Assembly: GCA_003151775.1 (NCBI GenBank)
Contig: PLYK01000132.1
Location: 24,343 to 64,243, forward strand
Source of the DNA: Geobacter sp.
GTDB taxonomy: Bacteria; Desulfobacterota; Desulfuromonadia; Geobacterales; Pseudopelobacteraceae
Reading direction: 5' to 3'
Length of the DNA stretch: 39,901 bases
A program made the position numbers and the translations under genes. Under the pieces are notes generated by a model. The model was given only the letters and a program-made list of their open reading frames with translations. It was not told the DNA's origin and did no database searches. Of the stretch, positions 4,819 to 18,391 are shown piece after piece. Position 1 is the first letter of the stretch, and each line of letters starts with the position of its first letter.

Positions 4819-5612
4819 CCGGCGCCAAAGGAACCAACACCCCGCCCCGCAAACGCCTGTTCATCTCGCTGATGGGCTTCACCTGCCTGATCTTGGTGGG
4901 GCTTATCTTTCTTGCCTGGTGGGTTCCCAATCGCGGCCTTGCCAACATCCACCCCCAACTGCCCAATATCGTCGGTATCGCCGTGGTGGTGCTTTCGGGC
5001 GTCGCCATTCTGGGGACCGGCCTTTTGGTCTTGACCACCGCCCTGGGCAAGGATATCTTTTTCACCCGCTTCATGCGCCTGGTGGTAATCAAGTTTCTCC
5101 TGCCGATGATCGAGTTGGTAGGGCGCGGGCTGGGGCTTGACAAGGACAGTATCCGCCAATCCTTCATTGCCATGAACAACAGCCTGGTCATCTCGCAGCG
5201 CCAGAAGGTCAGGCCCGACCGCATCCTGGTGTTGCTCCCCCACTGCATACAGCTTTTCGACTGCGAGATCAAGGTCACCGGCGACATCAGGAAATGCGTG
5301 CAGTGCGGCCGTTGCGACATCAAGGGATTGGTGGGCATCGGCCAGAAATACCATGTGGACATATCCGTGGCCACCGGTGGCACACTTGCCCGTAAGGTGA
5401 TCGTGGAAAAACGCCCCAAGCTGGTGCTGGCCGTGGCATGCGAGCGCGACCTCACCTCCGGCATCAAGGACTGTTACCCCTTGCCGGTAATCGGCATTCT
5501 CAACAATCGCCCCTTCGGCCCCTGCTTCAATACCACCGTCGATACCGCCAAGATCGACGAGGCCCTGAGCCAGGTGATTATCCTGGAAGAGCCGGCCTCG
5601 CCAACCGCCTGA
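4815..5612 (+). CDS. DUF116 membrane protein with Cys-rich motif
   Basis: Two hydrophobic segments near residues 15-36 and 50-74 place the N-terminal third in the membrane. The cytoplasmic remainder is the DUF116 domain. It contains PHCIQLFDC (Cys144 and Cys150) and the cluster CVQCGRC (Cys161, 164, 167), then further cysteines in ACERDL, KDC and GPCF. The Cys spacing suggests an iron-sulfur or other metal site, but the biochemical role of the family is not established. It overlaps fmt by four bases, so it is co-expressed with the N-terminal formylation and deformylation genes. This adjacency occurs in Geobacter-type genomes as far as I recall. A role in methionine or tRNA chemistry is only a guess from context. 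Confidence 0.85.
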   Translation: MTGAKGTNTPPRKRLFISLMGFTCLILVGLIFLAWWVPNRGLANIHPQLPNIVGIAVVVLSGVAILGTGLLVLTTALGKDIFFTRFMRLVVIKFLLPMIELVGRGLGLDKDSIRQSFIAMNNSLVISQRQKVRPDRILVLLPHCIQLFDCEIKVTGDIRKCVQCGRCDIKGLVGIGQKYHVDISVATGGTLARKVIVEKRPKLVLAVACERDLTSGIKDCYPLPVIGILNNRPFGPCFNTTVDTAKIDEALSQVIILEEPASPTA

Positions 5613-5624
5613 AACACAACTTGT

Positions 5625-6038
5625 CTACAGGTTACGCCAGCGGGTCATGAATTCTGCCGGAGAAAGGATGGGCGTTCCTTCGAATTCTCCAAGGCGTTTC
5701 AGGTGCTCGTCCCCGAAAACGATGCAGGCGGCGCGGGCCTTTTGGGCGCATTCGAGGAACTTGTCGCCGACCGGATCGGCCTCGACTGCATGCAGGTCGT
5801 TGTCGATGACAACAAAAACGATTTGTTGTCTGGTTTTGAACAGCTCCAGAAGCTCTTTCAATTCGGGCTCCCCGGCCAGGCCCATGCGAGCGAGAACTTC
5901 CAGGTACTCAGTAAGGATTTCCGCACAGAGACAGATGGTGACCTGACCGGTTTTCCACAGGTCGATGATCAGCCGCGGCGTTCCTTTCGGGCTCAAAAAG
6001 GAAGAAATAAAGGCATTCGTGTCGATGACAACCTTCAC
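5625..6038 (-). CDS. PIN-domain toxin, module 1
   Basis: A 137-residue PIN-domain protein of the type annotated as putative toxin-antitoxin toxin. It begins MKVVIDTNAFISSFLSPKG, giving the first acidic residue. The second is in AEILTEYLEVL, and further acidic residues follow in VEADPVGDKFLE and FGDEHL. PIN toxins are Mg-dependent RNases that cleave tRNA, rRNA or mRNA when the antitoxin is lost. It follows the ribbon-helix-helix antitoxin gene with a four-base ATGA overlap, the standard module layout. The ends converge with the DUF116 gene, leaving 12 bases between stops. The RNA target cannot be read from sequence. Confidence 0.85.
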   Translation of the reverse strand: MKVVIDTNAFISSFLSPKGTPRLIIDLWKTGQVTICLCAEILTEYLEVLARMGLAGEPELKELLELFKTRQQIVFVVIDNDLHAVEADPVGDKFLECAQKARAACIVFGDEHLKRLGEFEGTPILSPAEFMTRWRNL

Positions 6039-6280
6039 CGACTTGCCCGTGTCTCCCGGATGATCCGGTCAACGTCCTTGGCGTTTACCCCAAGCTTATC
6101 GGCCTTGGCGCCGATACGATCCCAAAGGTCATCCACTACCTGGGAGAGGTCCGCTTTACGGACATAGTTCTCGATCAGCTCCCGCATTTTCTCGCTGGCG
6201 GTCTTCCCCTCCATGCGGGAGACACGCTGGAACCGCTCCTTGGTCTCATCGTCGATACGAATCACCATCTGCCTGGTCAT
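6035..6280 (-). CDS. Ribbon-helix-helix antitoxin, module 1
   Basis: An 81-residue antitoxin candidate. The N-terminus (MVIRIDDETKERFQRV) matches a ribbon-helix-helix DNA-binding fold: a short beta strand, then helices containing GKTASEKMRELI. The C-terminal half (residues 45-81) is helical and acidic/basic, likely the toxin-wrapping segment. GAGGTGA just before the ATG at 6280 is a good ribosome-binding site. The gene precedes and overlaps its toxin by four bases. A palindrome and a strong promoter lie directly upstream, fitting autorepression by the toxin-antitoxin complex. This last point follows from family behaviour and was not seen directly. Confidence 0.85.
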   Translation of the reverse strand: MTRQMVIRIDDETKERFQRVSRMEGKTASEKMRELIENYVRKADLSQVVDDLWDRIGAKADKLGVNAKDVDRIIRETRASR

Positions 6281-6298
6281 GGCTCACCTCGTCTATAT

Positions 6299-6338
6299 TG
6301 TATATACATACTATACAAATCGTGCCGTTTGGTGTCAA
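6299..6338 (-). promoter_or_regulatory. Promoter and operator of toxin-antitoxin module 1
   Basis: On the minus strand a consensus -35 TTGACA (6333-6338) and -10 TATAGT (6310-6315) are separated by 17 bases. Directly downstream is the perfect 10-bp palindrome TGTATATACA (6299-6308), which overlaps the expected transcription start. It is a good candidate operator for the ribbon-helix-helix antitoxin. Confidence 0.7.
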
Positions 6339-6380
6339 CATGAGTATCTGCGGCTTAACCAGTCAGGCGTCCGCTTCCTT

Positions 6381-6767
6381 TTACCATTCCACTTGTACCG
6401 GATAGCTGCTGATGTGCGTATCCGGGGTGAGTATGGTCATGCCGCCGGCAATGGCCTGGCAGATGAGGATGCGGTCGAATGGGTCTTTGTGATATTCAGG
6501 CAGGCGGGACAATTGCAGCACGGAGGCTTCATCCAGAGGCAGAGTATCGATCTGGTGGCGGATACGGTTGTTTTTGATGAAGTCGTGCGCCGGTTCGGGT
6601 AGTGGCAATTTACCCAACTTGTTTTTTACAATAATCTCCCAAGCCGAGGCAACGCTGAGAAAGACATCGTTTGCCGGTTCGGCAAACAGCCGCCGGGCAT
6701 TCGGGGAGAGTTCCCGGCTGTCGGCTACCAGCCAGAGAAACGAACAGGTGTCCAACAGGATATTCAT
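6381..6767 (-). CDS. PIN-domain toxin (VapC-like), module 2
   Basis: A 128-residue PIN RNase. The acidic active-site residues are visible in order: LLDTCSFLWLVAD (Asp6), VASAWEIIVK (Glu), KDPFDRILICQA (Asp) and LTPDTHI (Asp). This arrangement fits the VapC-like group often paired with Phd/YefM antitoxins. The start overlaps the antitoxin stop by four bases. It is unrelated in sequence to the PIN toxin of module 1 beyond the shared fold, so the two modules are not a recent duplication. The cellular RNA target is unknown. Confidence 0.88.
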   Translation of the reverse strand: MNILLDTCSFLWLVADSRELSPNARRLFAEPANDVFLSVASAWEIIVKNKLGKLPLPEPAHDFIKNNRIRHQIDTLPLDEASVLQLSRLPEYHKDPFDRILICQAIAGGMTILTPDTHISSYPVQVEW

Positions 6768-7009
6768 TGCTCCTCGCCAGAGAACAATGCGATAGTTTCG
6801 TCCGGCAGCTCATCGAAAAATGAAGCCGGCACCGAGAATGTCCCCTTGGCAAGACCAATCGGACGTTTTTCATGAGACTTGGTGGCGATGGGGCGTATTT
6901 CCGCCACGGGTTTATTCCGTTTGCAGAGAATAAAACTCTCTCCCTTGGCAACCTCGTCAAGGTAATGCGACAGGTGTGTTTTTGCTTCTTGGACATTTAT
7001 TGTGTTCAT
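6764..7009 (-). CDS. Phd/YefM-type antitoxin, module 2
   Basis: An 81-residue antitoxin. The N-terminus MNTINVQEAKTHLSHYLDEV and the following GESFILCKRNKPVAEIRP are the classic Phd/YefM DNA-binding and dimerisation segment. The C-terminal tail (LPDETIALFSGEEQ) would bind and block the toxin. It overlaps the VapC-like gene by four bases. No Shine-Dalgarno sequence is seen before the ATG, and the best promoter would start transcription only a few bases upstream, so a leaderless mRNA is possible. The start is fixed by the family's N-terminal pattern. Confidence 0.85.
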   Translation of the reverse strand: MNTINVQEAKTHLSHYLDEVAKGESFILCKRNKPVAEIRPIATKSHEKRPIGLAKGTFSVPASFFDELPDETIALFSGEEQ

Positions 7010-7018
7010 GATGGTTTA

Positions 7019-7047
7019 ATAGTAGATCATTAACCTGACCAGGTCAA
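7019..7047 (-). promoter_or_regulatory. Promoter of toxin-antitoxin module 2
   Basis: On the minus strand, -35 TTGACC (7042-7047) and -10 TACTAT (7019-7024) are 17 bases apart. The inverted repeat TGACC-A-GGTCA (7036-7046) overlaps the -35 and may be an operator. The predicted transcription start (about 7012) is nearly at the start codon (7009). Between 7048 and 7222 I see nothing further. Confidence 0.55.
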
Positions 7048-7222
7048 TAGTTTAAGTACTCATTTGGCGTAGTTTGAGAGTGGAACAAACCGGGGACTGG
7101 AAGCAATCGACATATTTTTAGAAAGACGCTTTTGAGGAAACAACTTAGCATCTTGGAAGCCCCAGATGTGTTCCTTTGTTAAAGGGGGACTTGATCGTTA
7201 GCGGAAGATCGATGTTAATCAG

Positions 7223-7945
7223 CTATTTCATTGCACCCAGAAACAGCCCCTTTAGCCGTTCCCGTGGCAGGTTTGCCGGCACGTCTTCGGCAATCACCTT
7301 TCCCAGTGCCATGACATAGACCCGGTCGGCGATGGCGAAGACCGCATCGACATTCTGTTCAACTATGAGCATGGCTGTTTGGTATGAGTCTCGTATACCC
7401 CTGATCGTCGTGAAGCTCTTTTTCAGGGCTGCCGGTGCAAGGCCGAGGGAGGGCTCGTCGAGAAGGAGGAGCTTCGGCCGCAACATCAGCGCACGGCCGA
7501 GGGCGAGCATCTGCTTTTCGCCGCCACTCAGATCGCCGGCATCGTATTTTTGCCGTGCCGCCAGTTCGGGAAATAGGGCGAAGACTTCGGCCATGCGGGA
7601 GGTGGCAAGTCCCTTGTCCGTGAGGGTGTAGCCACCTATAGCAAGATTCTCGGTAACAGTCAGGTCGTCGAAGACCATATTCCCCTGCGGCGAGTAGGCT
7701 ATTCCGAGGGGCACGTTGTCGGACGGCTTGTTGCCGTTAATCCGTGCGCCGTGGTAAAGGATATCCCCCTTTCTGGCCGCCAGCATACCGATGACGCTTT
7801 TCAGCACCGTCGATTTCCCCGCGCCGTTCGGGCCGATGATGGCGACTATTTCACCCGGCATCACAGTTAGCGAGACACCTTGCAGAACCGGTTTCCGGTT
7901 GTAACCTGCTTCAAGGTCGATGATTTCCAGCACCGGTCCGCTCAT
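7223..7945 (-). CDS. livF: Branched-chain-type ABC transporter ATPase LivF
   Basis: Cytoplasmic ATPase of a branched-chain amino acid/amide-type (HAAT) importer, powering transport together with LivG. Walker A GPNGAGKST, signature LSGGEKQML and Walker B LLLLDEPSLGLAP are all present, followed by the switch His region in VEQNVDAV. Length (240 residues) is normal. It overlaps livG by four bases and is the last gene of the long minus-strand run. Codon use is GC-rich, like the flanking core genes and unlike the AT-rich genes upstream. The true substrate is uncertain, since HAAT systems also carry urea, amides or aromatic acids. Confidence 0.93.
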   Translation of the reverse strand: MSGPVLEIIDLEAGYNRKPVLQGVSLTVMPGEIVAIIGPNGAGKSTVLKSVIGMLAARKGDILYHGARINGNKPSDNVPLGIAYSPQGNMVFDDLTVTENLAIGGYTLTDKGLATSRMAEVFALFPELAARQKYDAGDLSGGEKQMLALGRALMLRPKLLLLDEPSLGLAPAALKKSFTTIRGIRDSYQTAMLIVEQNVDAVFAIADRVYVMALGKVIAEDVPANLPRERLKGLFLGAMK

Positions 7946-8667
7946 CCCAGATATGCCTCGATCACTTCGGAGTTCTCCCGCACCTGCGCGGGCTCGCCGT
8001 CAGCGATCACCCTCCCCCCCGCCATGACGATCAACCGGTCCGAAACCTCCATGACCGCTTCCATGTTGTGCTCGATGACAAGAACGCCGATTCCCTCGTC
8101 CCGCATGTCGCGCAGCAGGCCGAGGATCTTCACCGTCATCTCCTGGTTCACCCCGGCAACCGGCTCGTCGAGGAGCAGCAGGGCCGGATCGAGGGCGCGG
8201 CAGCAGGCGAGGTTCAGGAGCTTCTGTTGGCCGTAGGAAAGTTCACCCGCCGGCTCTTCGGCCTTGTCGGACAGCCCGACAAAGGCTAGAAGTTCCTGCG
8301 CCCGCTCACGGTTCTGCCGCTCCTTCCCCTTTTTCAGGGAAGCAAAGAGGGAAGCGCCGGGGTTGAAGGCGAGCATGACGTTGTCGAGGGTGGAGAGTTT
8401 CTTGATAGTGCGGAGGTTTTGAAAGGTACGTCCGATCCCGGCAGCGGCTACGGCATAGGGGGGCTTGCCCGTGATCTCCAGCGAGTTGAAGCAGATCAAG
8501 CCGCTGTCTGGCACGTGATAACCGCAGATCATGTTGAAGAGTGTCGTCTTTCCCGCGCCGTTGGGACCGATGAGGCCCGTGATTGCGCCTTTGGCTATGG
8601 TGCAGGAAACCTCCGTTACCGCTTTAACACCGTCGAAATGCTTGGTCACCCCTCTGATTTCAAGCAT
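7942..8667 (-). CDS. livG: Branched-chain-type ABC transporter ATPase LivG
   Basis: Second ATPase of the HAAT importer. Walker A GPNGAGKTTLFNM, the LivG-typical insertion GIGRTFQNLR, signature LSYGQQKLL and Walker B LLLLDEPVAGVN are visible, then VIEHNMEAVM. The C-terminal GEPAQVRENSEVIEAYLG is characteristic of LivG. Length (241 residues) is typical. It overlaps livM by eight bases and livF by four, so the three are translationally coupled. Function is inferred from the family; substrate specificity resides in the binding protein. Confidence 0.93.
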   Translation of the reverse strand: MLEIRGVTKHFDGVKAVTEVSCTIAKGAITGLIGPNGAGKTTLFNMICGYHVPDSGLICFNSLEITGKPPYAVAAAGIGRTFQNLRTIKKLSTLDNVMLAFNPGASLFASLKKGKERQNRERAQELLAFVGLSDKAEEPAGELSYGQQKLLNLACCRALDPALLLLDEPVAGVNQEMTVKILGLLRDMRDEGIGVLVIEHNMEAVMEVSDRLIVMAGGRVIADGEPAQVRENSEVIEAYLG

Positions 8668-9565
8668 CTTCTACTTCTTTACGCTCCTTGGGATGGGCGT
8701 TGAAGGCATATTCGCCGAACAGTCCTTGGGGGCGGTACATCATACAGAGGACCAGGAGCACGCCGTACAGTATCTGCCGCACGTTGGCGGCGACGGCGTT
8801 GGGAAGACCGACGAAACGGAGGATTTCCGGGAGTGAGACGAGGAAGGCGGCCCCGGCGACAGAGCCCTTGAGGCTTCCCGCACCGCCGATGATGACTATG
8901 GAGAGGATGAAGATCGACTCCATGACCGTGAAGCTCGTCGGGTCGATGTAGCTGATATAGACCGCATAGAGGCCGCCGCCGATGGATGCCAGGGCCGCGC
9001 CAATGACAAATGCTGCCATCTTGTAAGCGGTGACGTTCTTGCCGAGGGATTGGACGAAGATTTCGTCCTCCCGGATCGCCTTGAGAATTCTGCCGAAGGG
9101 GGAGTTGATGAGCCGGTTCAGGAAGAGGTAGACGGCGATACCTATCGCCGCGACGAGGCAGAGAAAGGCGCCGTGGGACGGCAGGGGAACGCCGAAGACG
9201 CTGGGCTGGGGAATGCCGGGGATGCCCATGGGGCCGCCGGTGAAGGAGACCCAGTTATTCAGGATGCTGAAGACGATGATTTGGAAGGCGAATGTGGTTA
9301 TTACGAAATAGTCGTCTCGGGTGCGGAGTGACGGCCAGGCGATGAGAAAGGCGATTGCTGCGGTCAGGATGACTCCTGTCGGGAGACAGAGCCAGAAGGG
9401 AATGCCTGCCTTGAGGGAGAGGAGCGCGGTCGTATACGCGCCGATTCCGTAGAAGGCAGCATGGGCCACGGAGATGAGGCCGGTGAAGCCTGCCGGGAGG
9501 TTCAGGGACATGGCGACGATGGAGTATATCCCGATCATGATGAGGATGTGGAGCAGGTACTCCAT
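8660..9565 (-). CDS. livM: Branched-chain-type ABC permease LivM
   Basis: Inner-membrane permease of the HAAT importer, forming the channel with LivH. The 301-residue protein has about eight hydrophobic segments. It carries LivM signatures: a start with SIVAMSLNLPAGFTGLISVA, the central FGRILKAIREDEIFVQSLG loop that couples to the ATPase, and IIGGAGSLKGSVAGAAFLV near the C-terminus. It ends YRPQGLFGEY, typical for the family. The start overlaps the livH stop by one base. Composition is GC-rich throughout. Confidence 0.92.
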   Translation of the reverse strand: MEYLLHILIMIGIYSIVAMSLNLPAGFTGLISVAHAAFYGIGAYTTALLSLKAGIPFWLCLPTGVILTAAIAFLIAWPSLRTRDDYFVITTFAFQIIVFSILNNWVSFTGGPMGIPGIPQPSVFGVPLPSHGAFLCLVAAIGIAVYLFLNRLINSPFGRILKAIREDEIFVQSLGKNVTAYKMAAFVIGAALASIGGGLYAVYISYIDPTSFTVMESIFILSIVIIGGAGSLKGSVAGAAFLVSLPEILRFVGLPNAVAANVRQILYGVLLVLCMMYRPQGLFGEYAFNAHPKERKEVEDA

Positions 9566-10452
9566 CAGACCTCCGCCTTACGTATCTTCTTGCCGAAGAA
9601 GCCCTGGGGTCTTAGGAGGAGGAAAAGGAGAAGGACGATGAAGGCGATGGCGTCCTGCCACTGAGAGGAGATTTTCCAGACGCCGAAGTTCTGGGCAAAG
9701 GCAAGGAGAAAGGCACCCAATGCAGCACCGGGGATACTACCCACCCCACCGATGATGACCGCCACGACCCCCATCATAAGGGCGTTCATTCCCATTGTCG
9801 GGGTCATGTCGGTGTCGAAGGAGATGAGGATTCCGGCTATACCCGCGAGGGCGGAGCCGATGGCGAAGGCGATTAGGATTACTTTGTCCGTGTCGATGCC
9901 GGTTACAAAAGCAAGTTCAGGATTGGCGGCGACTGCTCGCATATAGATTCCAATTCTTGTAAACCTCATACAAATCAGACACAAGATTACCAACGAAACA
10001 CCAACTACAATTGTCACCAGTTGGATAGGTGTTATACGGGCTCCAAGTATATCACTGCCTTCGGTGACCATTCCGTCTCTTATACTCTTTGTCTCATCAC
10101 CATAAATTAAAGAAATAATATTTTGCAAAATAATATAAATGCCAATAGAAGCAAGTAACAAGACCAAAGGAGAAGCAGTATTAAAACGCAGGTACCGGTA
10201 TGGTCCAAGCTCAACAAGGATTGCTATAAATAGCGTTAAAACTATTGCCAGCGGAATAGAATAGTATAGTGGAAGGTATAGAATGCGATATAAAAAGAAA
10301 ACCAAATATGGACCTAATGTATAAATAGCACCGTAACTAAAATTAAAAAATTTAGCAGTAGAATATATTATACAAAAGCTTACACCTATAATAGAATATG
10401 CACTTCCAGTTGCTATTGAATTTACTATCAATTGTATGCACGTATTACTCAT
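9565..10452 (-). CDS. livH: Branched-chain-type ABC permease LivH, mosaic composition
   Basis: Second permease of the importer, 295 residues with about eight membrane segments. Family landmarks are SIIGVSFCIIYSTAKFFNFS at the N-terminus, the coupling loop GIYMRAVAANPELAFVTGI and GGVGSIPGAALGAFLLA near the C-terminus. The oddity is composition. The N-terminal half (about 9950-10452) is strongly AT-rich, with many ATA and TTA codons. The C-terminal half uses GC-rich codons like livM. The reading frame is intact across the change. No clear Shine-Dalgarno precedes the ATG at 10452, so translation may depend on coupling to the binding-protein gene 11 bases upstream. A recombination joint within the gene is the simplest reading. 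Confidence 0.88.
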   Translation of the reverse strand: MSNTCIQLIVNSIATGSAYSIIGVSFCIIYSTAKFFNFSYGAIYTLGPYLVFFLYRILYLPLYYSIPLAIVLTLFIAILVELGPYRYLRFNTASPLVLLLASIGIYIILQNIISLIYGDETKSIRDGMVTEGSDILGARITPIQLVTIVVGVSLVILCLICMRFTRIGIYMRAVAANPELAFVTGIDTDKVILIAFAIGSALAGIAGILISFDTDMTPTMGMNALMMGVVAVIIGGVGSIPGAALGAFLLAFAQNFGVWKISSQWQDAIAFIVLLLFLLLRPQGFFGKKIRKAEV

Positions 10453-10463
10453 GATTGTTATAA

Positions 10464-11585
10464 TTATTGATTTAGTAATTTAAATTTGTTATTTGATACG
10501 ACATAAATTGATATATTCTTATTTTTATTATCACCATTGTTATTGAATTCGATCCGTCCGGTAACTCCATCAACAAAAAACCCTTGTTTTTTTATTTCAG
10601 ACACAATTCCTTTTCGGGATTTGTCTGTGGCCTTTTCTATAGCATTTATAATAACTTCCGCGGCATCATATCCCAGAGGTGCATAACTAACGACCTTACC
10701 ATATTTACGTTCATATTCTTTGAAGAATTTTACTGCCTTCGGGGAAACACCTCGATCAGGAGCAATAAAACTAACAATTGAACCCTCTCCAGCATTACCA
10801 GCCTGTTGCAAGAAGGCACTACCATAGCACCCATCGCCTGCAATCGCCGTGGCTTTTAACCCCATCTCTTTCATTTGCCTAACAAAAGGGGCACCCATAT
10901 CATATGTTGCTCCTATAACAACATACTTTGGATGCAACTCCTTGAGCTTTGCAATAAGCGTCTTGTAATCGCGTGACTCTTTTTTTGCGCCCTCAAAGGC
11001 CACAATATTTCCACCGGCAGACCTGAACTTATCACGAAAGGCATTGGCAAAGCCTAAACCGTAAGACGTTAAATCGTTCACAATTGCTACCGGCGCTATA
11101 GGATCTTTTGAAAGCAAGTATAATGCAAGAAACGGGGCTTGATCATCATCTGTGGGCGGGATCCTAAATAAGGATTGGTATCCTAATTGCGTAATTCTTG
11201 GGTTTGTAGGCACCGGCATTGCGACCGGCATTCCATTTTTTGCATAAACTTCTGCAGCGGCACTCATACAACCACTGGTTAAATGCCCGACAACAGCTAT
11301 ATATCGAGAATCTTGGCATATTTGATTGGCAATCGCGACGGCTGTTTTAGGGTCACCTTGATCATCAAACAATTGATAATGAATAATAGCGTTGCTGTCT
11401 AGATTGAGTTCATCAAAAGCCATTTTAGCTCCATTAGCAGTATCCTTACCATTTTCTGCAAGGGTTCCTGTAAGTGAGCTAACAATTGCTACATATACCG
11501 CAGGCTTACGAAATCCAAACGCAATAACGCCGGTAACAATGATCAATGAAATGCAAACAACAAGCCATGCATAATTCTTATTCAT
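10464..11585 (-). CDS. Branched-chain-type periplasmic binding protein
   Basis: A type I periplasmic binding protein of the Leu/Ile/Val (LivJ-like) family, the substrate-capture component for the adjacent LivHMGF. An N-terminal hydrophobic segment (residues 4-24) acts as signal or membrane anchor and has no lipobox. The mature part starts VYVAIVSSLTGTLAENGKD and includes AVVGHLTSGCMSAAAEVY and the hinge regions typical of the fold. It ends in an Asn/Lys-rich strand. The start at 11585 is preferred over 11600 because AGGAGGG sits just upstream. It lies 24 bases after the radical SAM gene. Composition is lower in GC than livM-livG-livF, so it belongs to the imported part of the run. The ligand is unknown. 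Confidence 0.88.
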   Translation of the reverse strand: MNKNYAWLVVCISLIIVTGVIAFGFRKPAVYVAIVSSLTGTLAENGKDTANGAKMAFDELNLDSNAIIHYQLFDDQGDPKTAVAIANQICQDSRYIAVVGHLTSGCMSAAAEVYAKNGMPVAMPVPTNPRITQLGYQSLFRIPPTDDDQAPFLALYLLSKDPIAPVAIVNDLTSYGLGFANAFRDKFRSAGGNIVAFEGAKKESRDYKTLIAKLKELHPKYVVIGATYDMGAPFVRQMKEMGLKATAIAGDGCYGSAFLQQAGNAGEGSIVSFIAPDRGVSPKAVKFFKEYERKYGKVVSYAPLGYDAAEVIINAIEKATDKSRKGIVSEIKKQGFFVDGVTGRIEFNNNGDNKNKNISIYVVSNNKFKLLNQ

Positions 11586-11609
11586 ATTCTCCCTCCTCAT
11601 CCGAAGAAA

Positions 11610-12881
11610 TTAGCCCTTCATTTCTGTCTCTAAATCTCGAAGGTTTTGAACATGCTCCGCTACTTTAGCCTCCCAACCTATTGGAAGTAAGTCGCCAGCT
11701 CTGTCACGGAATGGGCATCCATGATAAATACCGTATCCTTTGTATCCAATTGAATTAAAGGGAATGCTATTATAAGCAAATCCATGTTTCTTATAATGAT
11801 TGCGGTATGGATTGTTCGCAATTGCCTTAATAAGTGCATACTCTTGGTGAACATTACCCAAATAATTGTTATCAGTACCGTCAGTCTCATCTGGGCAACC
11901 GCAACAAGGATATATTCTTCCTCGTGCATTAATGTAAAGTCCATAGGGCAACTGCGAGCATGGCAAACCGCCTAAGTATGGTGACGCACCCCCAAAAGGA
12001 ATACCTAATTCTTCATTTAACGAATAAATTCCCTCAGCAATTTTGAGCATTCGCTCCTTTGAAATGTATAAACCGCGTCGCTTTCTCCAGTCTGCATTTC
12101 GTGTAAGCCCAACCGGCACGGGAGGATCAAGATCAACAAAAATGCGTCGTTCTGCTTTAAGCCGGTATATTTTCTCTATATCATCTATACCTTGTGGGGT
12201 AATAACACTTTCAAGTCCCAACCGAGTCCAACCCGTTGGGCTATCCTCAGCTGCAACGCCGGTCATTATAAGTTTCTCCTCTTCACAGGAAAATACAGGC
12301 GGTTCGTTGAAGCCAACTGCAATCAACTGCTCAAGAATATGATTTCGTTTTTCGGCATATCCCTTAAGACCAACAAGACTGTCCTCTTTATCGTTGTTGA
12401 AGGAGTGAAACTTCAACATTATGCTGACACGTAATTTTTTTAGATATTCGATAAGTTCACGTGGCTTAAGACCATGTACTTTCAAACATTGTGACTCGTC
12501 AGCCAATATCGAACCATTGGTAAAAACGACCATCCACATATTAAGCATTTCACTTGCAAACTCTATGAAATCGACAAAACCGCTCTCTTGGAATGGTTCC
12601 TGATCACCAACTAGTTTAGCACTTTTACATCCTAATGTGGCGGCATCCTTAAAAATAGACTTAAGTTGTTCAATATTCAATTTTGAAAGGCTGCCTTGCT
12701 TGTTTCTGACAAATTCGCGCTCGTCTGTCTCAACAAAACAATAACGACACTTGAGGTTGCATTTATTCTGACATGGATAATCAAAGTCCATGGTTAGCAG
12801 TGCAATGGCTTCTCTATCAATATATTTTTTTATGGTTGCTTCAGGGTATTGCCAACCAATCAGTGAGTTAACCCAAGTCAT
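11610..12881 (-). CDS. Radical SAM protein with SPASM-like C-terminus
   Basis: A 423-residue radical S-adenosylmethionine enzyme. The cluster motif CNLKCRYC (Cys41, 45, 48) binds the [4Fe-4S] cluster that cleaves SAM. The following LKSIFKDAATLGCKSAKLVGDQEPF fits the SAM-binding barrel. The C-terminal third has more cysteines (LPCSQLPYGLYI, YPCCGCPDE, HGCPF), which look like a SPASM or twitch-type auxiliary cluster domain. The substrate is unknown. No small precursor-peptide gene lies next to it, since the gaps on both sides are under 30 bases. GGAAG is positioned before the start. It is tightly packed between a membrane protein gene and a transporter binding-protein gene, an unusual setting. 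It could modify a peptide, a nucleoside or a transported molecule. Confidence 0.85.
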   Translation of the reverse strand: MTWVNSLIGWQYPEATIKKYIDREAIALLTMDFDYPCQNKCNLKCRYCFVETDEREFVRNKQGSLSKLNIEQLKSIFKDAATLGCKSAKLVGDQEPFQESGFVDFIEFASEMLNMWMVVFTNGSILADESQCLKVHGLKPRELIEYLKKLRVSIMLKFHSFNNDKEDSLVGLKGYAEKRNHILEQLIAVGFNEPPVFSCEEEKLIMTGVAAEDSPTGWTRLGLESVITPQGIDDIEKIYRLKAERRIFVDLDPPVPVGLTRNADWRKRRGLYISKERMLKIAEGIYSLNEELGIPFGGASPYLGGLPCSQLPYGLYINARGRIYPCCGCPDETDGTDNNYLGNVHQEYALIKAIANNPYRNHYKKHGFAYNSIPFNSIGYKGYGIYHGCPFRDRAGDLLPIGWEAKVAEHVQNLRDLETEMKG

Positions 12882-12909
12882 AAGCAGACTTCCAATCGAA
12901 TTTGATATG

Positions 12910-14787
12910 TCATTTTATGTGACTTAATTTGCAAGTATTAGATTCATTTATATCAAAAAATATTTTATTTAGACCAGATCGTATTGCAGAAGCAATATCA
13001 TTGTTTATACCAGAAGCTGCCATCGAAGCAAGGTCGAGAACTGGAGAGAATGAAAGGTGGACATCAGATTTCCTGCCATTACTTAAACTATCGTCAAATC
13101 CAATAAAAAATACCCAACAATCGAGATCTGGTTTGTTTTTATCTCTAATAGCAAAGAAATCAGAGGGGAACTGGAAGGTCCTAACTATAGTTTTTTCACT
13201 TCCATCACTTCCTTTAACTGGACGACTTGAAATGCGAACATCTTTTTGGAATATATCGAGACAGTCATCAATACAACGGAAAATAAACTTATCTGCTATT
13301 TCATCATCAGAAGCATCAATATTCAGTCCATGGTACCCAAGAAGCACATCTTTAAGTTTTCCCCATCCTAACTGTTCCGGGTGCTCCGACGCAGACGAAT
13401 CAGCAAGAGTTCCAAAGCCGTCATGAAATTGGTTTACTTTTCTAATGTTCTCTTGATCAATTTTAGTAAATTTTGACGAAGGAATAAATGATTCCAAGTC
13501 TGCGCTGAGAATTTTACGGGGAATCCATGAATTATTAGCAGTCACAACAAAACCTTTCTTGATTTCATGAGCAACTGTAGCACAGTCTACAAATTCTACC
13601 GATTGTTTATCAACTCCTTTGGAATAAGCAAATATTCTTTTCCACACACCTTTATTGTTGGAATGAAAATCATGAAATGCCTCAAGAAATCCAATCCATT
13701 CATCAAAGTCACTAGAATTTCTAAACCTAAAAATATTGATTGGTGATTTTGGCATAACAGTATAAAACTCGAATCTATGATACCAACTCTCTAGAGAACT
13801 AACTATTTTTTCGATTGTTTTTATATAATATGCGAACGAAGTAACATGTAAAAGTACTCCTGGAAACTGTCGTTCCAGTGTTTCTGTTTCAAAATACCGT
13901 CCAATTGCTACGGACATGTATGCATAATGAGGACGTTCATCTTTGTAATCGATAATTCTTTTCGAAATTTTAACTACTGTGTCATCTTCACCGTCTTTGG
14001 GCGGATTAATGCCAGGTGCAAGAAGAGGATGCAGAGCGACCAGGTGAAATTTTTCTACCTGATCGCACATTCCTAAAAGTGCTTCTGCCATATTTTCATC
14101 ATCATTATTTGTTTTCAGTTCCATTGCTGAATCAGATATGGCACGAATCCGTTCTGCAGTTTGCCTTGTAGTGGCCACTGTTTGAATGGTACGACTAAGA
14201 ACAGATAATGAAGCAAAAGTCTTCTGGACTTGAGTAGATACTTCGCTTATTTTACCATACGTGCTGTTTATTTCTGTATTTGTTCCATTAAGTTTAGTTC
14301 CTAAATCACCAATACTATTAAATGTGTTAGCGATAACTGACGTTATCACTGCAAGAAAGCCTGCTGAAATTAAATCTTTTGCCCATCCAAGATAAATACT
14401 AACAGATCTTACATCAGGCCTATGCTCAGCAAAATCATTTAGTGATGATATGAAAGCCAAATATGTTCCAACTAAAAAAACAACAAACCATAGATTTGGG
14501 AAATGCCAAAGCCGTCTTCCAAATTCAGCGAATCTGATAAATATAGGAATTGTAGTAGTTTTAGCAAACCTTGAATGTGCGAAACTCAACGAGCCAAAGA
14601 TAATAAAGACCAGCGTAACTACGCAAAATATAGCCAGTACTATCGCAGGAATGGTTGTAAATAGCATTAGAATCCATGCTAAGATCAACAATGCAATTGA
14701 AATACCGAAAGGAATAATAATTTCTCTAAACGACAGGATTACGTTATTTGATTGTGGTGAGACTTCTGGCGTGGCGACATCATTCAT
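12910..14787 (-). CDS. Unrecognised membrane protein with large soluble domain
   Basis: I do not recognise this 625-residue protein. Hydrophobic segments lie near residues 22-44, 46-68 and 97-116, with a weaker fourth at about 128-152. A Ser/Thr/Asn-rich heptad-like stretch, probably coiled coil, follows at about 155-225. The remaining 400 residues are soluble and mixed alpha/beta, with a Trp/Phe-rich region (RFRNSSDFDEWIGFLEAFH) and no motif I can name. The start at 14787 follows AGAGGG; an upstream ATG at 14820 is an alternative. It is AT-rich with codon use unlike flanking core genes. It sits between the RES gene and the radical SAM gene with gaps of 43 and 28 bases, suggesting co-transcription. 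A membrane sensor or effector is possible, but this is inference. Confidence 0.7.
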   Translation of the reverse strand: MNDVATPEVSPQSNNVILSFREIIIPFGISIALLILAWILMLFTTIPAIVLAIFCVVTLVFIIFGSLSFAHSRFAKTTTIPIFIRFAEFGRRLWHFPNLWFVVFLVGTYLAFISSLNDFAEHRPDVRSVSIYLGWAKDLISAGFLAVITSVIANTFNSIGDLGTKLNGTNTEINSTYGKISEVSTQVQKTFASLSVLSRTIQTVATTRQTAERIRAISDSAMELKTNNDDENMAEALLGMCDQVEKFHLVALHPLLAPGINPPKDGEDDTVVKISKRIIDYKDERPHYAYMSVAIGRYFETETLERQFPGVLLHVTSFAYYIKTIEKIVSSLESWYHRFEFYTVMPKSPINIFRFRNSSDFDEWIGFLEAFHDFHSNNKGVWKRIFAYSKGVDKQSVEFVDCATVAHEIKKGFVVTANNSWIPRKILSADLESFIPSSKFTKIDQENIRKVNQFHDGFGTLADSSASEHPEQLGWGKLKDVLLGYHGLNIDASDDEIADKFIFRCIDDCLDIFQKDVRISSRPVKGSDGSEKTIVRTFQFPSDFFAIRDKNKPDLDCWVFFIGFDDSLSNGRKSDVHLSFSPVLDLASMAASGINNDIASAIRSGLNKIFFDINESNTCKLSHIK

Positions 14788-14830
14788 TACGCAACCCTCT
14801 TTTAAAGTAATGCTACACAAAAAATTGCCA

Positions 14831-15844
14831 TCACCGACAACTGCTAAACATTATTTTGATGTCATCAATTCGATACTGAGAAACATCCTTCCCCATCACC
14901 TTAGTATCATTAAATATCGCATAATTTATCCCCGGCCCCATCGCGCTGCGATAAATAACGCCATCATAACCAATCGTCTTTATATACTCGCACAGATACT
15001 GACTCGGCAAATATTCAAGGTGCGCGAAGTGCGGCAATACCGGCATAGTCAACTCCTCACCCAGCCGGCACAGATACTCCATATAACGCCGGAACAGTTT
15101 CAGAATGGTATCGTCAAGCTCAAAAGGCGAAACGGTCTTGCGCGGGTTCTGCAGATCAATCAACTTCAACGAATCTTCCACATCGAGCTCGGCAACGCAA
15201 ACCAATTCGCCCTTATGAGGCCTGATTTCGGCTACTGCCGTCGCGGCATCAGAGGCGACATACAGACACGGTATCCCGACAGGATTGGCCCGCCCGTTTC
15301 CGGCCTGCTTCTCCGGCGGCTTTCCCATCTGGTCGATGGAATACAGATCCTGCTGGTCACACATCCTGGCGCGGTAAACCTTGGCTGGGGCTCTTCCCTG
15401 TAAAAATTCAAAAGGCTTTTCAATTTCCTGTATCTTCTTGATGTTTTTCGGGAAGTAGCGGTTTCGATGCTTCAATTCTTCTCGAAAATCCTCCCATTCC
15501 TGGACCGCAGATGCATCGTTCTCCACGACCGGGGCATATTTCTTGTGGAAGATTGTGTTATCGTCGAATATCAGCACCAACAGGGTTTCGGCCTTGACCG
15601 GGTCGAGTCTGTCAAAAAGGCCCCAATCACTGCGTATAAGCGCTTCCAGGCTCGAAGCATCAGGAGAACCGCTTTCCTCGTAAACTCCGATCAAAGCTTC
15701 AAAATAATCCACCAGCTCAGGCGGATCAATGAGCTTGACACCTCGGCTACCACAATACTCGCAATCCCCGGTTTCCTTGGCGGATTGTTCAATCTGTCGA
15801 GCAAGAAAGTTATCGCCTATACAGTTACCGCAACACTTCTTCAT
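14831..15844 (-). CDS. RES-domain protein with N-terminal zinc-ribbon and helical domain
   Basis: A 337-residue protein ending in a RES domain, a family known in RES-Xre toxin-antitoxin systems as NAD+-degrading toxins. Expected key residues are visible: Arg158 (VYRARM), Ser198 (LYVASDA) and Glu206 (AVAEIRPH), with GRANPVGIP before them. The N-terminus has two CxxC pairs (Cys5/8 and Cys28/31), a likely zinc ribbon, followed by a helical region of about 100 residues of the kind annotated as HEPN/RES N-terminal. No Xre-type antitoxin gene is adjacent. The ATG lies four bases after the stop of the sce7725-like gene, so translation is coupled. It is larger than plain RES toxins, so activity may be gated by the N-terminal part. 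NAD+ degradation is inferred from the family. Confidence 0.82.
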   Translation of the reverse strand: MKKCCGNCIGDNFLARQIEQSAKETGDCEYCGSRGVKLIDPPELVDYFEALIGVYEESGSPDASSLEALIRSDWGLFDRLDPVKAETLLVLIFDDNTIFHKKYAPVVENDASAVQEWEDFREELKHRNRYFPKNIKKIQEIEKPFEFLQGRAPAKVYRARMCDQQDLYSIDQMGKPPEKQAGNGRANPVGIPCLYVASDAATAVAEIRPHKGELVCVAELDVEDSLKLIDLQNPRKTVSPFELDDTILKLFRRYMEYLCRLGEELTMPVLPHFAHLEYLPSQYLCEYIKTIGYDGVIYRSAMGPGINYAIFNDTKVMGKDVSQYRIDDIKIMFSSCR

Positions 15845-15848
15845 CTGC

Positions 15849-16790
15849 TTACGCCCCGAGGAAGTGCTCGATCAACTCGATATGATGCTGCATGGAAAGC
15901 TTCTTTGCGTAGCCGAGACCGGGATAGTGTTCCTGCTCATGTAAGGTCATATACTCCTGAACGGCTTCTGAGCGGAAGATCATCGAACCGCGGCGGTTTA
16001 CATCGTCAACAAGTTTCTGCAACGCCTCCAGGAATTTCCCCCTGGGATCGACCGGAGAATTTGTCCGATCCGACACGTAATGCTTAATGTACATGTCATT
16101 ATCTTCGTTGCTGTGGAGATAGGTCAGATGGATGGCAACCGCGTATGCCGGACCACCGGTTTCCATGTAATCATCTCCCACTATCAGAAAGTCCCCGAAG
16201 CCGTTTACACCCTCATCCATGTACGTTATGTGGAGGTCCGAGAAATGCTCTCCTTCGGGATGCTCCCGATTCTTCCGGTGGATAAAACCGTCGCGGATGA
16301 GAATACGTTGATTGTCCCTGAAATGACGGCGATACAGACGGCTGCAAAACTGTTCGATGAAGATATGGTTTGTGATGACATCATAACTGGCCAAGGCTTC
16401 ACCTAGTTCCCTGCTCCCCTCTGCGTAGCCGTAGTGGATAATGCTGACTGGCTTGGTCTGAGCAGCGCAAAAGGCCTGAATGTCAGCCAGCGATGAATCT
16501 TCACTGATGATGTAGCCTATGGAAAATTTGTCATAGTCGGAGAGGAGATCATCGATTATTTCGTCAAAAAGAAGGGTGCCGTCGTTTCGCAGTTCTCCGT
16601 AAACCGGATTGACTATGAGAGTGAAGCGTGTGTTGTGTTCGACCAATTTTTCGATTGTGCGGGAAAGTCCGGAAAGGTTACGTTTGACCGGCTCTATGAT
16701 GGGGATGATATTGGCGCGGGCCATCCGTTCCGCATTCTCCCGGATGGTGATCAGGTCATACTGTTTCCCGCGAAAATAGGGATAATACAT
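15849..16790 (-). CDS. sce7725 family protein (T4 beta protein-like)
   Basis: A 313-residue protein starting MYYPYFRGKQYDLITIREN. This resembles the sce7725 family and, more distantly, phage T4-type beta proteins with a probable TIM-barrel-like fold. Recurrent strand-helix units are visible (IIPIIEPVKRN, TLIVNPVYGE, SIGYIISED, VSIIHYG, NHIFIEQ). The molecular function of the family is not known to me. The sce7725 and sce7726 names come from neighbouring Sorangium cellulosum loci, and the two families are also adjacent here, which supports both calls. AGGAGGG just before the ATG is a strong ribosome-binding site. Gaps to the neighbours are 19 and 4 bases. A role in conflict or defence is inference from its partners. 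Confidence 0.75.
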   Translation of the reverse strand: MYYPYFRGKQYDLITIRENAERMARANIIPIIEPVKRNLSGLSRTIEKLVEHNTRFTLIVNPVYGELRNDGTLLFDEIIDDLLSDYDKFSIGYIISEDSSLADIQAFCAAQTKPVSIIHYGYAEGSRELGEALASYDVITNHIFIEQFCSRLYRRHFRDNQRILIRDGFIHRKNREHPEGEHFSDLHITYMDEGVNGFGDFLIVGDDYMETGGPAYAVAIHLTYLHSNEDNDMYIKHYVSDRTNSPVDPRGKFLEALQKLVDDVNRRGSMIFRSEAVQEYMTLHEQEHYPGLGYAKKLSMQHHIELIEHFLGA

Positions 16791-16809
16791 GCACCCTCCT
16801 CAGTAGAAA

Positions 16810-17739
16810 CTACGTCAATGCAAGGCAATCTCCGATATCTGCATTCAATGCGTCAACAAACCGCTCTTGCTCGGCACAGCCCAACCGGCAGTAGAGCGAC
16901 AGCGCCTTCAGTGAGGGTGGGACCGCCGTGATGAATTCGTGCAGCCGCCGGCTGTTTCCCCGTTTTTTCAAGACCTTCACCATGGAATCATGTGCCGCTT
17001 CCGGAGAGAGGGAACAGAAATGCTCACGACAGGCCTGATACATGCGGGCATTGGAGACATTCGGTACAGCGCCGAAATGCGTTTTGACAATCTGTTCATA
17101 CTCACTACTTCTCAGGGAATCAAAGATCACCGCTGGTTGCGCCGCATGCTTCAACGATACAGGGACGCGGACGGTACGAATAGTGTTGCGGTCGGTGAGG
17201 ACCAAGAGGCCGATATCCTCTCCCACCGCTCTTGCCACCTTTTCCGCTTGCGAGGCGGACGTTATCACGTTAATCTTGTCGAAGACCTGCCGGTAGGCAG
17301 CTACCTGGCGGGACAGGCGCTCCATGCTGTCATAGGCGGACTTGATTTCGTACACTGTGCTGGTCCCATTGAGAAGCACCGTGTCCGCTTTGCAGTTCCC
17401 GGCGCGGAACTCCGTCAGCATGCAGGTAGTGGTAAGCGAATGCACCCCGAGCAGGATTTTCTGGGCGATGACGTTCTTGTATATGTATTCGTTCCGGTAC
17501 GACCGGAACATGAGCGCATAGACCTGGTCGAAGAACTCCCGCAAGGGGATTGCCGGATCAAGAACATGCACGAAGGCAGCTTCCCTGAGAATGGCCGCCG
17601 CCATGGACGAACGGCCCGTCGCGGCAAGCTCTTTTATGACAGTTGTCGAAAAGAGCCGCGCCAGGGTTGGCCCGTGAAACGATGATGATTTTAGTGTTGT
17701 TCTGTTCATATATTCAGAATAGCTCATCCAGCCATGCAA
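16810..17739 (-). CDS. sce7726 family protein, PD-(D/E)XK nuclease-like
   Basis: First gene of the ten-gene run, matching the sce7726 family by recognition of its pattern. The central region contains a nuclease-like signature: Asp119 in NCKADTVLL, then Glu131 and Lys133 in VYEIKSAYD, with an upstream Glu in RNEYIYKNVI. This is the D...ExK pattern of PD-(D/E)XK enzymes, which cleave nucleic acids. The helix after ExK (RLSRQVAAYRQVFDKINVIT) fits restriction-like folds. Start choice is uncertain: ATGs at 17739, 17727 and 17709 are in frame and none has a strong Shine-Dalgarno. A good promoter lies about 200 bases upstream. Nuclease activity is a prediction from the motif only. Confidence 0.75.
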   Translation of the reverse strand: MHGWMSYSEYMNRTTLKSSSFHGPTLARLFSTTVIKELAATGRSSMAAAILREAAFVHVLDPAIPLREFFDQVYALMFRSYRNEYIYKNVIAQKILLGVHSLTTTCMLTEFRAGNCKADTVLLNGTSTVYEIKSAYDSMERLSRQVAAYRQVFDKINVITSASQAEKVARAVGEDIGLLVLTDRNTIRTVRVPVSLKHAAQPAVIFDSLRSSEYEQIVKTHFGAVPNVSNARMYQACREHFCSLSPEAAHDSMVKVLKKRGNSRRLHEFITAVPPSLKALSLYCRLGCAEQERFVDALNADIGDCLALT

Positions 17740-17936
17740 TTCCAGCGGCTTCGGTCATTTTGCACGTTTTCTCAAAACAAAAAAACCACCCCATCAGCCC
17801 AAAGCTGACACGAGCGGCCTTCTCCCTACTCAAAATGGCCCCACCAGCGTGAAACCATCTTCATCCTCCCTTAACTGCACCGCGTTTTTAGCGCCACGAT
17901 CATGGAAAATATTGAAACCAATCGCAATAATGCGCA

Positions 17937-17964
17937 GTTATACTCTTATTGTTCTTAATGTCAA
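17937..17964 (-). promoter_or_regulatory. Promoter for the sce7726-to-liv gene run
   Basis: On the minus strand a perfect -35 TTGACA (17959-17964) and -10 TATAAC (17937-17942) are 16 bases apart, within the 341-base gap between the sce7726-like gene and the selenoprotein gene. Transcription would begin near 17930, giving a leader of about 190-220 nt. Apart from this promoter and the hairpin at 18012-18036, I see nothing definite in the gap. Confidence 0.6.
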
Positions 17965-18011
17965 CAGGTAGGCGAGTATCTCTTCCTTCTTGGTAATATC
18001 CTTACACTGAG

Positions 18012-18036
18012 ATTTTGCAGACAGCGTCTGCAAAAT
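18012..18036. terminator. Hairpin after the selenoprotein gene, possible terminator
   Basis: A perfect 11-bp inverted repeat (ATTTTGCAGAC, loop AGC, then its complement) lies 45 bases beyond the stop of the selenoprotein gene. A/T-rich stem ends could serve as part of a bidirectional terminator. There is no long U-tract outside the stem, so the call is tentative. Confidence 0.45.
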
Positions 18037-18080
18037 TGGATTCAACGGAAAGACGGGCAGTGCCTGGAATATCTTTTCCG

Positions 18081-18335
18081 TTATTCAACTTCAATCTCCG
18101 CCAGCATATCCAAGGCAAAATTCTTGGCCCTGCCGCCGGGTGCGATCGCGCCGTAGGCGATCGCCTCACGGAGTTCAGCGTCCGTGGCGCCATAGGACTT
18201 CGCGGCCGCGAAGTGCTTCTTCAGTCAGGTGGGGCACCCCACGGCGATGGCGCACCCCACGCGGATCAGTTCGCGCGTGCGGCCGTCCAGCACCTCTTCA
18301 TACTCGTAGTCGAGAAACTTCTTGCGGATTTTCAT
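18081..18335 (-). CDS. AhpD-like (CMD family) selenoprotein with in-frame UGA
   Basis: An 84-residue carboxymuconolactone decarboxylase/AhpD-family protein whose frame is interrupted only by TGA at 18225-18227 (codon 37). Reading it as selenocysteine gives VGCPTULKKHF, that is Cys34-x-x-Sec37-x-x-x-His41. This matches the catalytic CxxC-x3-H pattern of AhpD, with Sec in place of the second Cys. Family-typical sequence continues smoothly after the codon (SYGATDAELREAIAYGAIAPGG) to a TAA at 18081. A strong AAGGAGG precedes the ATG, and a SECIS-like hairpin follows the UGA at suitable spacing. AhpD-like selenoproteins are known in Geobacter-type bacteria. The likely role is thiol/selenol redox or peroxide defence in the cytoplasm. 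It follows glnE by 55 bases. Annotation software would split or miss it. Confidence 0.88.
18198..18227 (-). promoter_or_regulatory. Bacterial SECIS-like element and UGA Sec codon
   Basis: UGA occupies 18225-18227. After 17 nt (which include the 5' arm) comes the apical loop GGCC (18204-18207), closed by the six-pair stem CUUCGC/GCGAAG (18208-18213 and 18198-18203). Bacterial SECIS elements place a short loop, with G in its first two positions, about 16-37 nt after the UGA, and this hairpin meets both criteria. It would bind SelB. Confidence 0.8.
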
Positions 18336-18355
18336 GTTTTTCCCCTCCTTTCATC

Positions 18356-18391
18356 AGGGACTCGGAATTAACTGATATACTCCGAGTCCCT
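18356..18391 (-). promoter_or_regulatory. Hairpin between glnE and the selenoprotein gene
   Basis: A perfect 11-bp inverted repeat (AGGGACTCGGA, 18356-18366 and 18381-18391) starts at the last base of the glnE stop codon and ends just before the AAGGAGG of the selenoprotein gene. No U-tract follows, so it is more likely an mRNA-processing, stability or attenuating structure than a full terminator. Confidence 0.55.

Follow-up and report, generated by a model that had tools for sequence, protein, structure and literature searches.

An in-frame joint inside a livH-like permease gene probably unites two related liv operons within an acquired genomic island

Introduction

Importers of the branched-chain amino acid/HAAT class (LivJHMGF, UrtABCDE) are built from a Peripla_BP_6 binding protein, two BPD_transp_2 permeases and two ATPases, encoded in a single operon. 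Genes of a single operon can have conflicting histories, and such mosaic operons arise by horizontal transfer and in situ gene displacement. Genomic islands, in turn, are recognized as inserts missing in congeners, with partly foreign composition and with toxin-antitoxin genes among their cargo.

Here we describe a locus that shares features with all three systems, located in a stretch of 39,901 nucleotides (the window). All importer parts are present according to Pfam: a binding protein, two BPD_transp_2 permeases and two ATPases (P0001, P0002, P0003, P0009, P0010). Unlike the described Liv and Urt operons, the operon also holds radical-SAM and membrane-protein genes, and its class is assigned from sequence. 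The permease encoded by livH scores far under the curated NCBIfam equivalog cut-offs (121 of 379 bits for LivH, 140.2 of 250.3 bits for UrtB) and is therefore not filed as LivH proper. The locus resembles mosaic operons in the conflicting histories of its genes; unlike in these, the seam is intragenic, and livH apparently serves as a seam repeatedly, in unrelated hosts. It differs from typical genomic islands in that the window holds no tRNA gene, a Pfam scan of 14 island proteins gave no integrase, and no repeats were found at the island ends, nor any of note inside it. A title-level search of the literature returned nothing on a radical-SAM/Liv operon or on joints inside such permeases.

Results and Discussion

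The composition step inside livH is real and exceeds chance. The gene is a single open and intact frame on the minus strand (9565-10452), continuous as the earlier note had described it, and its GC3 changes from 0.26 (48/183) in codons 1-183 to 0.76 (85/112) in codons 184-295. The change point at codon 183 (~9903) has an LLR of 35.1, and 1000 shuffles reached no more than 9.1, which bears out the sharp change proposed in that note. Its description of the codons holds as well: ATA and TTA occur 11 and 5 times in the 183 codons of the AT-rich part, then 2 and 0 times in the following 112, and the 3' part of livH is GC-rich together with livM, livG and livF (Table 1). The AT-rich 5' part itself is larger than the half assigned to it originally, making up ~60% of the gene, with the step at ~9.87-9.95 kb.

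Table 1. Coordinates of the island and of its features in the window
Feature	Position	Strand	GC3	Basis or remark
Whole insertion (genomic island)	5620..18072	.		between DUF116 gene and probable selenoprotein gene adjoining glnE
PIN (PIN_3) gene 5625-6038 and RHH_1 gene 6035-6280, toxin-antitoxin-like pair	5625..6280	-		Pfam
PIN gene 6381-6767 and Phd/YefM antitoxin gene 6764-7009	6381..7009	-		Pfam
livF-like ATPase gene	7223..7945	-	0.685	Pfam ABC_tran
livG-like ATPase gene	7942..8667	-	0.777	Pfam ABC_tran, BCA_ABC_TP_C
livM-like permease gene	8660..9565	-	0.791	Pfam BPD_transp_2; nearest relatives Nitrospirota, 70%
3' part of livH, host-like	9565..9903	-	0.76	GC3 change point
Inferred joint, loop-motif region of livH	9870..9951	-		change points and support intervals
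5' part of livH	9904..10452	-	0.26	GC3 change point
livJ-like substrate-binding protein gene	10464..11600	-	0.325	Pfam Peripla_BP_6
Radical SAM/SPASM protein gene	11610..12881	-	0.347	Pfam; 56% to L010
HP636, 636-aa protein, predicted N-terminal membrane spans	12910..14820	-	0.253	hydropathy
RES-domain gene, sce7725-family gene, sce7726-family gene	14831..17739	-		Pfam, NCBIfam, GC (0.49-0.55)

When all sites are taken into account, the change point falls at 9940 (~codon 171), irrespective of whether the gene alone, 8660-11600 or 7223-14820 is considered, with a support interval of 9931-9951 for the gene alone and 9870-9951 for the wider stretches. This position lies in the conserved loop MRAVAANPELA of LivH. 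No GC3 difference separates the 5' part of livH from HP636 (p 0.85) or LivJ (p 0.14); the deviation from the radical-SAM gene is slight (p 0.047), and that from LivM is strong (p 3.6e-31). In its 3' part, livH is indistinguishable from LivM (p 0.50) and from host GlnE (p 0.91; GC3 0.77). The AT-rich block extends past livH upstream, with its other edge at ~14,929. As to whether close homologues share the step, the nearest ones, L009 and L011, do not (GC3 0.59/0.61 and 0.57/0.60). In 14 relatives divided at the corresponding position, the step never exceeds 0.16, versus 0.44 in the window; L092, which shares its order with the window, has a strong step at another codon.

The draft genome (2.95 Mb, 145 contigs, completeness 84%) carries the window on contig C96, and livH belongs to an insertion of ~12.45 kb that is missing in 5/5 same-genus genomes, the flanks being 87-95% identical at the nucleotide level. 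Congener nucleotide matches end at window position 5619 and restart at 18,070-18,089; in 5/5 congeners the DUF116 gene adjoins the glnE region, representing the empty site, which is flanked by two convergent genes. The island cargo comprises two PIN toxin-antitoxin-like pairs, livF, livG, livM, livH, livJ, the radical-SAM/SPASM gene, HP636 and the RES/sce7725/sce7726 genes. An Rfam scan of 5000-19000 gave no match up to E = 1. HP636 is 44-47% identical to its counterpart in L010 and has no Pfam or NCBIfam match and no sequence match in the PDB set; its structure model is unusable (mean pLDDT 33.6). A plasmid search with the radical-SAM protein yielded distant matches only (11 records, 24-26%). 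Upstream of HP636, a RES-domain gene is followed by the sce7725- and sce7726-family genes, the latter with a PADLOC match named cll (E 6e-17). At the right island edge, a small minus-strand gene (18081-18335), which presumably encodes an AhpD-like selenoprotein, contains one in-frame TGA within a CPTU motif; the gene occurs in the congeners as well.

A comparison with relatives offers a greater level of detail about the origin of the single genes. We considered 19 loci from a single scan of 84,980 species, with the distant L026 and L027 set aside. The window LivM, LivG and LivF are nearest to the Nitrospirota loci L009, L011 and L024 (70, 58-61 and 60-61%, respectively), and L010 is the nearest locus for LivJ, the radical-SAM protein and HP636 (65, 56 and 44%); other ingroup loci having LivJ reach only 24-31% for that protein. 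L018, which is present in the LivH-half trees, is absent from those of LivJ and LivMGF. The LivJ tree joins the window with L010 (support 100) and rejects the window with L009 (p-AU 2.8e-59). The LivMGF tree places the window with L009/L011/L024 (support 100) and rejects the window with L010 (p-AU 7.8e-5). This conflict indicates that the operon itself is mosaic. LivM is missing in 5/5 congeners and, at the limits used and with the own genome included, matched in 2/147 relatives, 2/141 genomes of the order and 11/395 of the phylum. As livMGF are missing in 5/5 same-genus genomes, the GC-rich transporter is not resident in the genus; the host-like composition of these genes points either to a long stay in GC-rich hosts or to a donor that was GC-rich itself.

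Separate trees of the two LivH halves, suggested in the earlier note as a check, did not bring out a strong topological conflict. These trees hold 26 rows, without L017, L023, L024, L025, L091, L004 and L005, which have a partial or no LivH 5' part or are distant paralogues. In the 5'-half tree the window stands beside the Nitrospirota loci L009/L011 (support 92/87, not starred) on an end branch of 0.87, the longest of the 14-row ingroup, followed by L019 (0.77) and L015 (0.72). In the 3'-half tree it is again close to L009/L011, with an end branch of 0.031. Placing the window with L010 for the 5' half is not rejected (p-AU 0.069). Hence, divergence and composition change between the halves, and their topologies do not clearly conflict. 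The similarity of LivH to eight relatives, taken relative to that of L011, is reduced ahead of codon 188 and normal beyond it, a pattern reached in 6/2000 permutations. None of the 19 loci provides a close relative, or donor, of the 5' half (best match 55%). Although LivJ is close to that of L010, the LivH 5' part has no special likeness to the L010 protein, so that the 5' half and the present LivJ did not necessarily arrive together. Gene conversion from an own paralogue was considered and rejected, as other LivH-like matches in the genome are only 25-35% identical; a second copy of the joint region was not found in the genome.

We consider it likely that livH is a mosaic in which two related liv operons were joined in frame by recombination, with the joint lying within the gained island. 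The shift of composition and similarity at codons 170-188 and the gene-tree conflict agree with a recombination joint inside the gene, as originally suspected, and the lack of clearly conflicting trees for the LivH halves tells against it. The protein-similarity change point (codon 188) is located slightly downstream of the all-sites composition point; with the third-position and protein-divergence changes falling within ~20 codons of one another, recombination of AT-rich and GC-rich family members is the simplest explanation. The first ~170-185 codons of livH would then be compositionally of a piece with the livJ/radical-SAM/HP636 block, and the 3' part with the host-like livM/G/F. Homologous recombination probably took place at the conserved loop motif, leaving an intact permease, and the chimeric product would probably be working. 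Since the joint is situated inside a 12.45-kb island gained by the lineage, neither half of livH is native to the genus.

The structure model of LivH, which has no sequence match in the PDB set, gives a hint at the consequences of such a joint. In this model (mean pLDDT 80.4, from 13 sequences), short helices at 166-176 and 178-183 lie between long helices at 142-164 and 188-211, and the PDB entries matching best are permeases, PsaC and BtuC among them, though the matches are weak (E 3e-4 and above, TM ~0.5). In permeases of this type, such a loop touches the ATPases. The joint would then keep the ATPase-contacting half together with its own livG/livF, and the ligand-facing half would have been swapped.

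The same data could also arise without any recombination, if in an operon of single origin the 5' part of livH and the upstream genes had drifted fast and toward AT, with 3' livH and livMGF keeping or gaining host composition. Such a history agrees with the shared nearest neighbors of both LivH halves, with the lower GC3 of the first part in 12/14 relatives, though by no more than 0.16, and with the lower conservation of LivH 7-100 relative to 190-290 in all listed pairs except L082/L083. We nevertheless regard it as improbable, because the step of 0.44 concerns mostly synonymous sites and is placed to a few codons, and we know of no mutational cause for a GC3 step of this size within one gene. 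Moreover, close pairs with a common history retain the 5' part (95% for L009/L011, 94% for L082/L083), and the LivJ and LivMGF trees conflict.

An assembly chimera, in which the liv operons of two organisms were merged at the conserved motif and no such mosaic exists in one cell, appears to us similarly hard to credit. The draft state of the genome, with 145 contigs and 84% completeness, invites the suspicion; a false join at a homologous conserved motif would be in frame too, and the contig of L024 stops at livH codon 156, as though the region were hard to assemble. However, the AT-rich block is internal, and both island ends lie in genus-syntenic chromosome on one contig, so that two false joins would be required. 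Furthermore, the joint is without a repeat elsewhere in the genome, and L092 displays an independent livH step on a 303-kb contig. Finally, it is very unlikely that, as first proposed, foreign genes were attached via the joint to a transporter which the lineage already possessed: host-like GC3 of 3' livH (0.76) and livMGF (0.69-0.79) next to 0.77 in host GlnE would suit it, but livMGF sit inside the same insertion as the AT-rich genes, 5/5 congeners lack both and have an empty site, LivM is nearly confined to this genome within the order (2/141, own included), and the closest LivMGF are from Nitrospirota.

Beyond the mosaic gene of the window, LivJ, the membrane protein and radical SAM seem to form an exchangeable front end and LivM/G/F a stable engine, with livH as the recurrent seam at which the two meet. 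Several partial lines of evidence support this idea, and none of them proves it. Change points were computed for 14 loci (the window, L092 and 12 others, with L011 and L016 outside the count), and were judged by the LLR value itself. The LLR exceeds 7 in 10/14 loci, with the AT-richer side upstream in 10/10. In 7/14 the change point falls within livH: besides the window, at ~codon 87 in L092, codons 32-34 in L013, L014 and L018, codon 19 in L017 and codon 114 in L015. Only those of the window, L092 and L013 are strong; as the first livH codons represent a hydrophobic helix, weak early change points may be ordinary. In L092 the step at another livH codon is accompanied by a different upstream module, with a different LivJ (26%) and a radical-SAM neighbor that groups with the B12-binding type.

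Pairs of loci with close LivM (at least 84%, n = 13, not mutually independent) provide a second line. Identity of LivH 7-100 is 77-97% in the seven pairs with close LivJ (83-93%), 44-62% in the four with foreign LivJ (26-44%) and 94-95% in the two without LivJ. Across 19 rows, LivH 101-166 and 190-290 track LivM (partial r ~0.9), and LivH 7-100 does so weakly (partial r 0.51; 0.40 without L084 and L086-L090). A general rule that the LivH 5' end always goes with LivJ was rejected: in a partial Mantel-type test on 19 rows, r between LivJ and LivH 7-100 is 0.54 (0/2000 permutations) and drops to 0.10 without the six rows L084 and L086-L090 (family f26), so the link rests on one family block and is not claimed.

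A third line comes from gene remnants in the 19 loci. Pieces of the LivH 5' end occur outside livH itself in L083 (5031-5105), L009 (8140-8208) and L011 (1289-1348, E 0.03); all three span residues 10-38 and adjoin AAA or toxin-antitoxin cassettes. A LivM piece in L010 (8304-8405) overlaps and then runs past an MNT-HEPN pair. All four pieces are on the operon strand, and the five Liv proteins gave no match up to E 0.1 against the opposite strand of the 19 loci; a weak plus-strand LivM match in L010 (E 0.076) looks like chance, and LivG/LivF matches outside their genes are other ATPases. In L025, livH is retained only from ~codon 155-169 onward. The livH scraps, which like the cassettes lie upstream, fit repeated cassette entry at livH, but unequal crossing-over between related operons would leave similar remnants. 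As blastn matches often start at conserved motifs, joint positions read from nucleotide matches are biased toward motifs.

A more far-reaching version, which we regard as doubtful, is that cassettes enter upstream of livH with their own livH 5' end and that the frame is restored at a few conserved motifs, whereby one engine would be re-targeted across phyla. The cassettes might consist of LivJ, a membrane protein and radical SAM of several kinds, and also of AAA/DUF4143, MNT-HEPN and PIN genes, and can be likened to elements that invade a gene and rebuild its end. If livH is indeed a recurrent seam, it would represent a natural form of importer re-targeting, in which the side toward the binding protein is replaced and the ATPase-contacting side is retained. 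The loci would then offer a natural set of chimeric permeases for asking which half sets specificity, and a case of traceable operon mosaicism with joints inside a coding gene.

The neighborhood of the relatives displays additional variation. The type of radical-SAM partner (SPASM or B12-binding) varies among otherwise similar liv operons across the family (for instance in L009, L012, L013, L014, L020 and L092), and the variable gene is found near LivJ, often with a membrane protein unrelated between loci. MNT-HEPN DNA is 92% identical between L010 (7646-7997) and L021 (10892-11243), located in the livM-livG gap of one operon and in the livH-livM gap of the other, as though such toxin-antitoxin cassettes shifted within liv operons.

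A separate observation concerns the livH frame in relatives. In passages of one account of ABC-transporter genes, frame transitions are treated chiefly as translational coupling, and livH is not named there (PMC3711429). In L082 (~636), L083 (~7428) and L092 (~6919), which belong to three families, the livH frame switches precisely at a nine-T run (C-T9-GCC), the only run of 8 or more T within these loci. Judged from the sequences, the site is likely to be one of programmed -1 frameshifting, transcript slippage or phase switching. The part of livH behind the run is under protein-level selection, as differences between L082 and L083 by codon position number 34, 14 and 133 over 681 bases.
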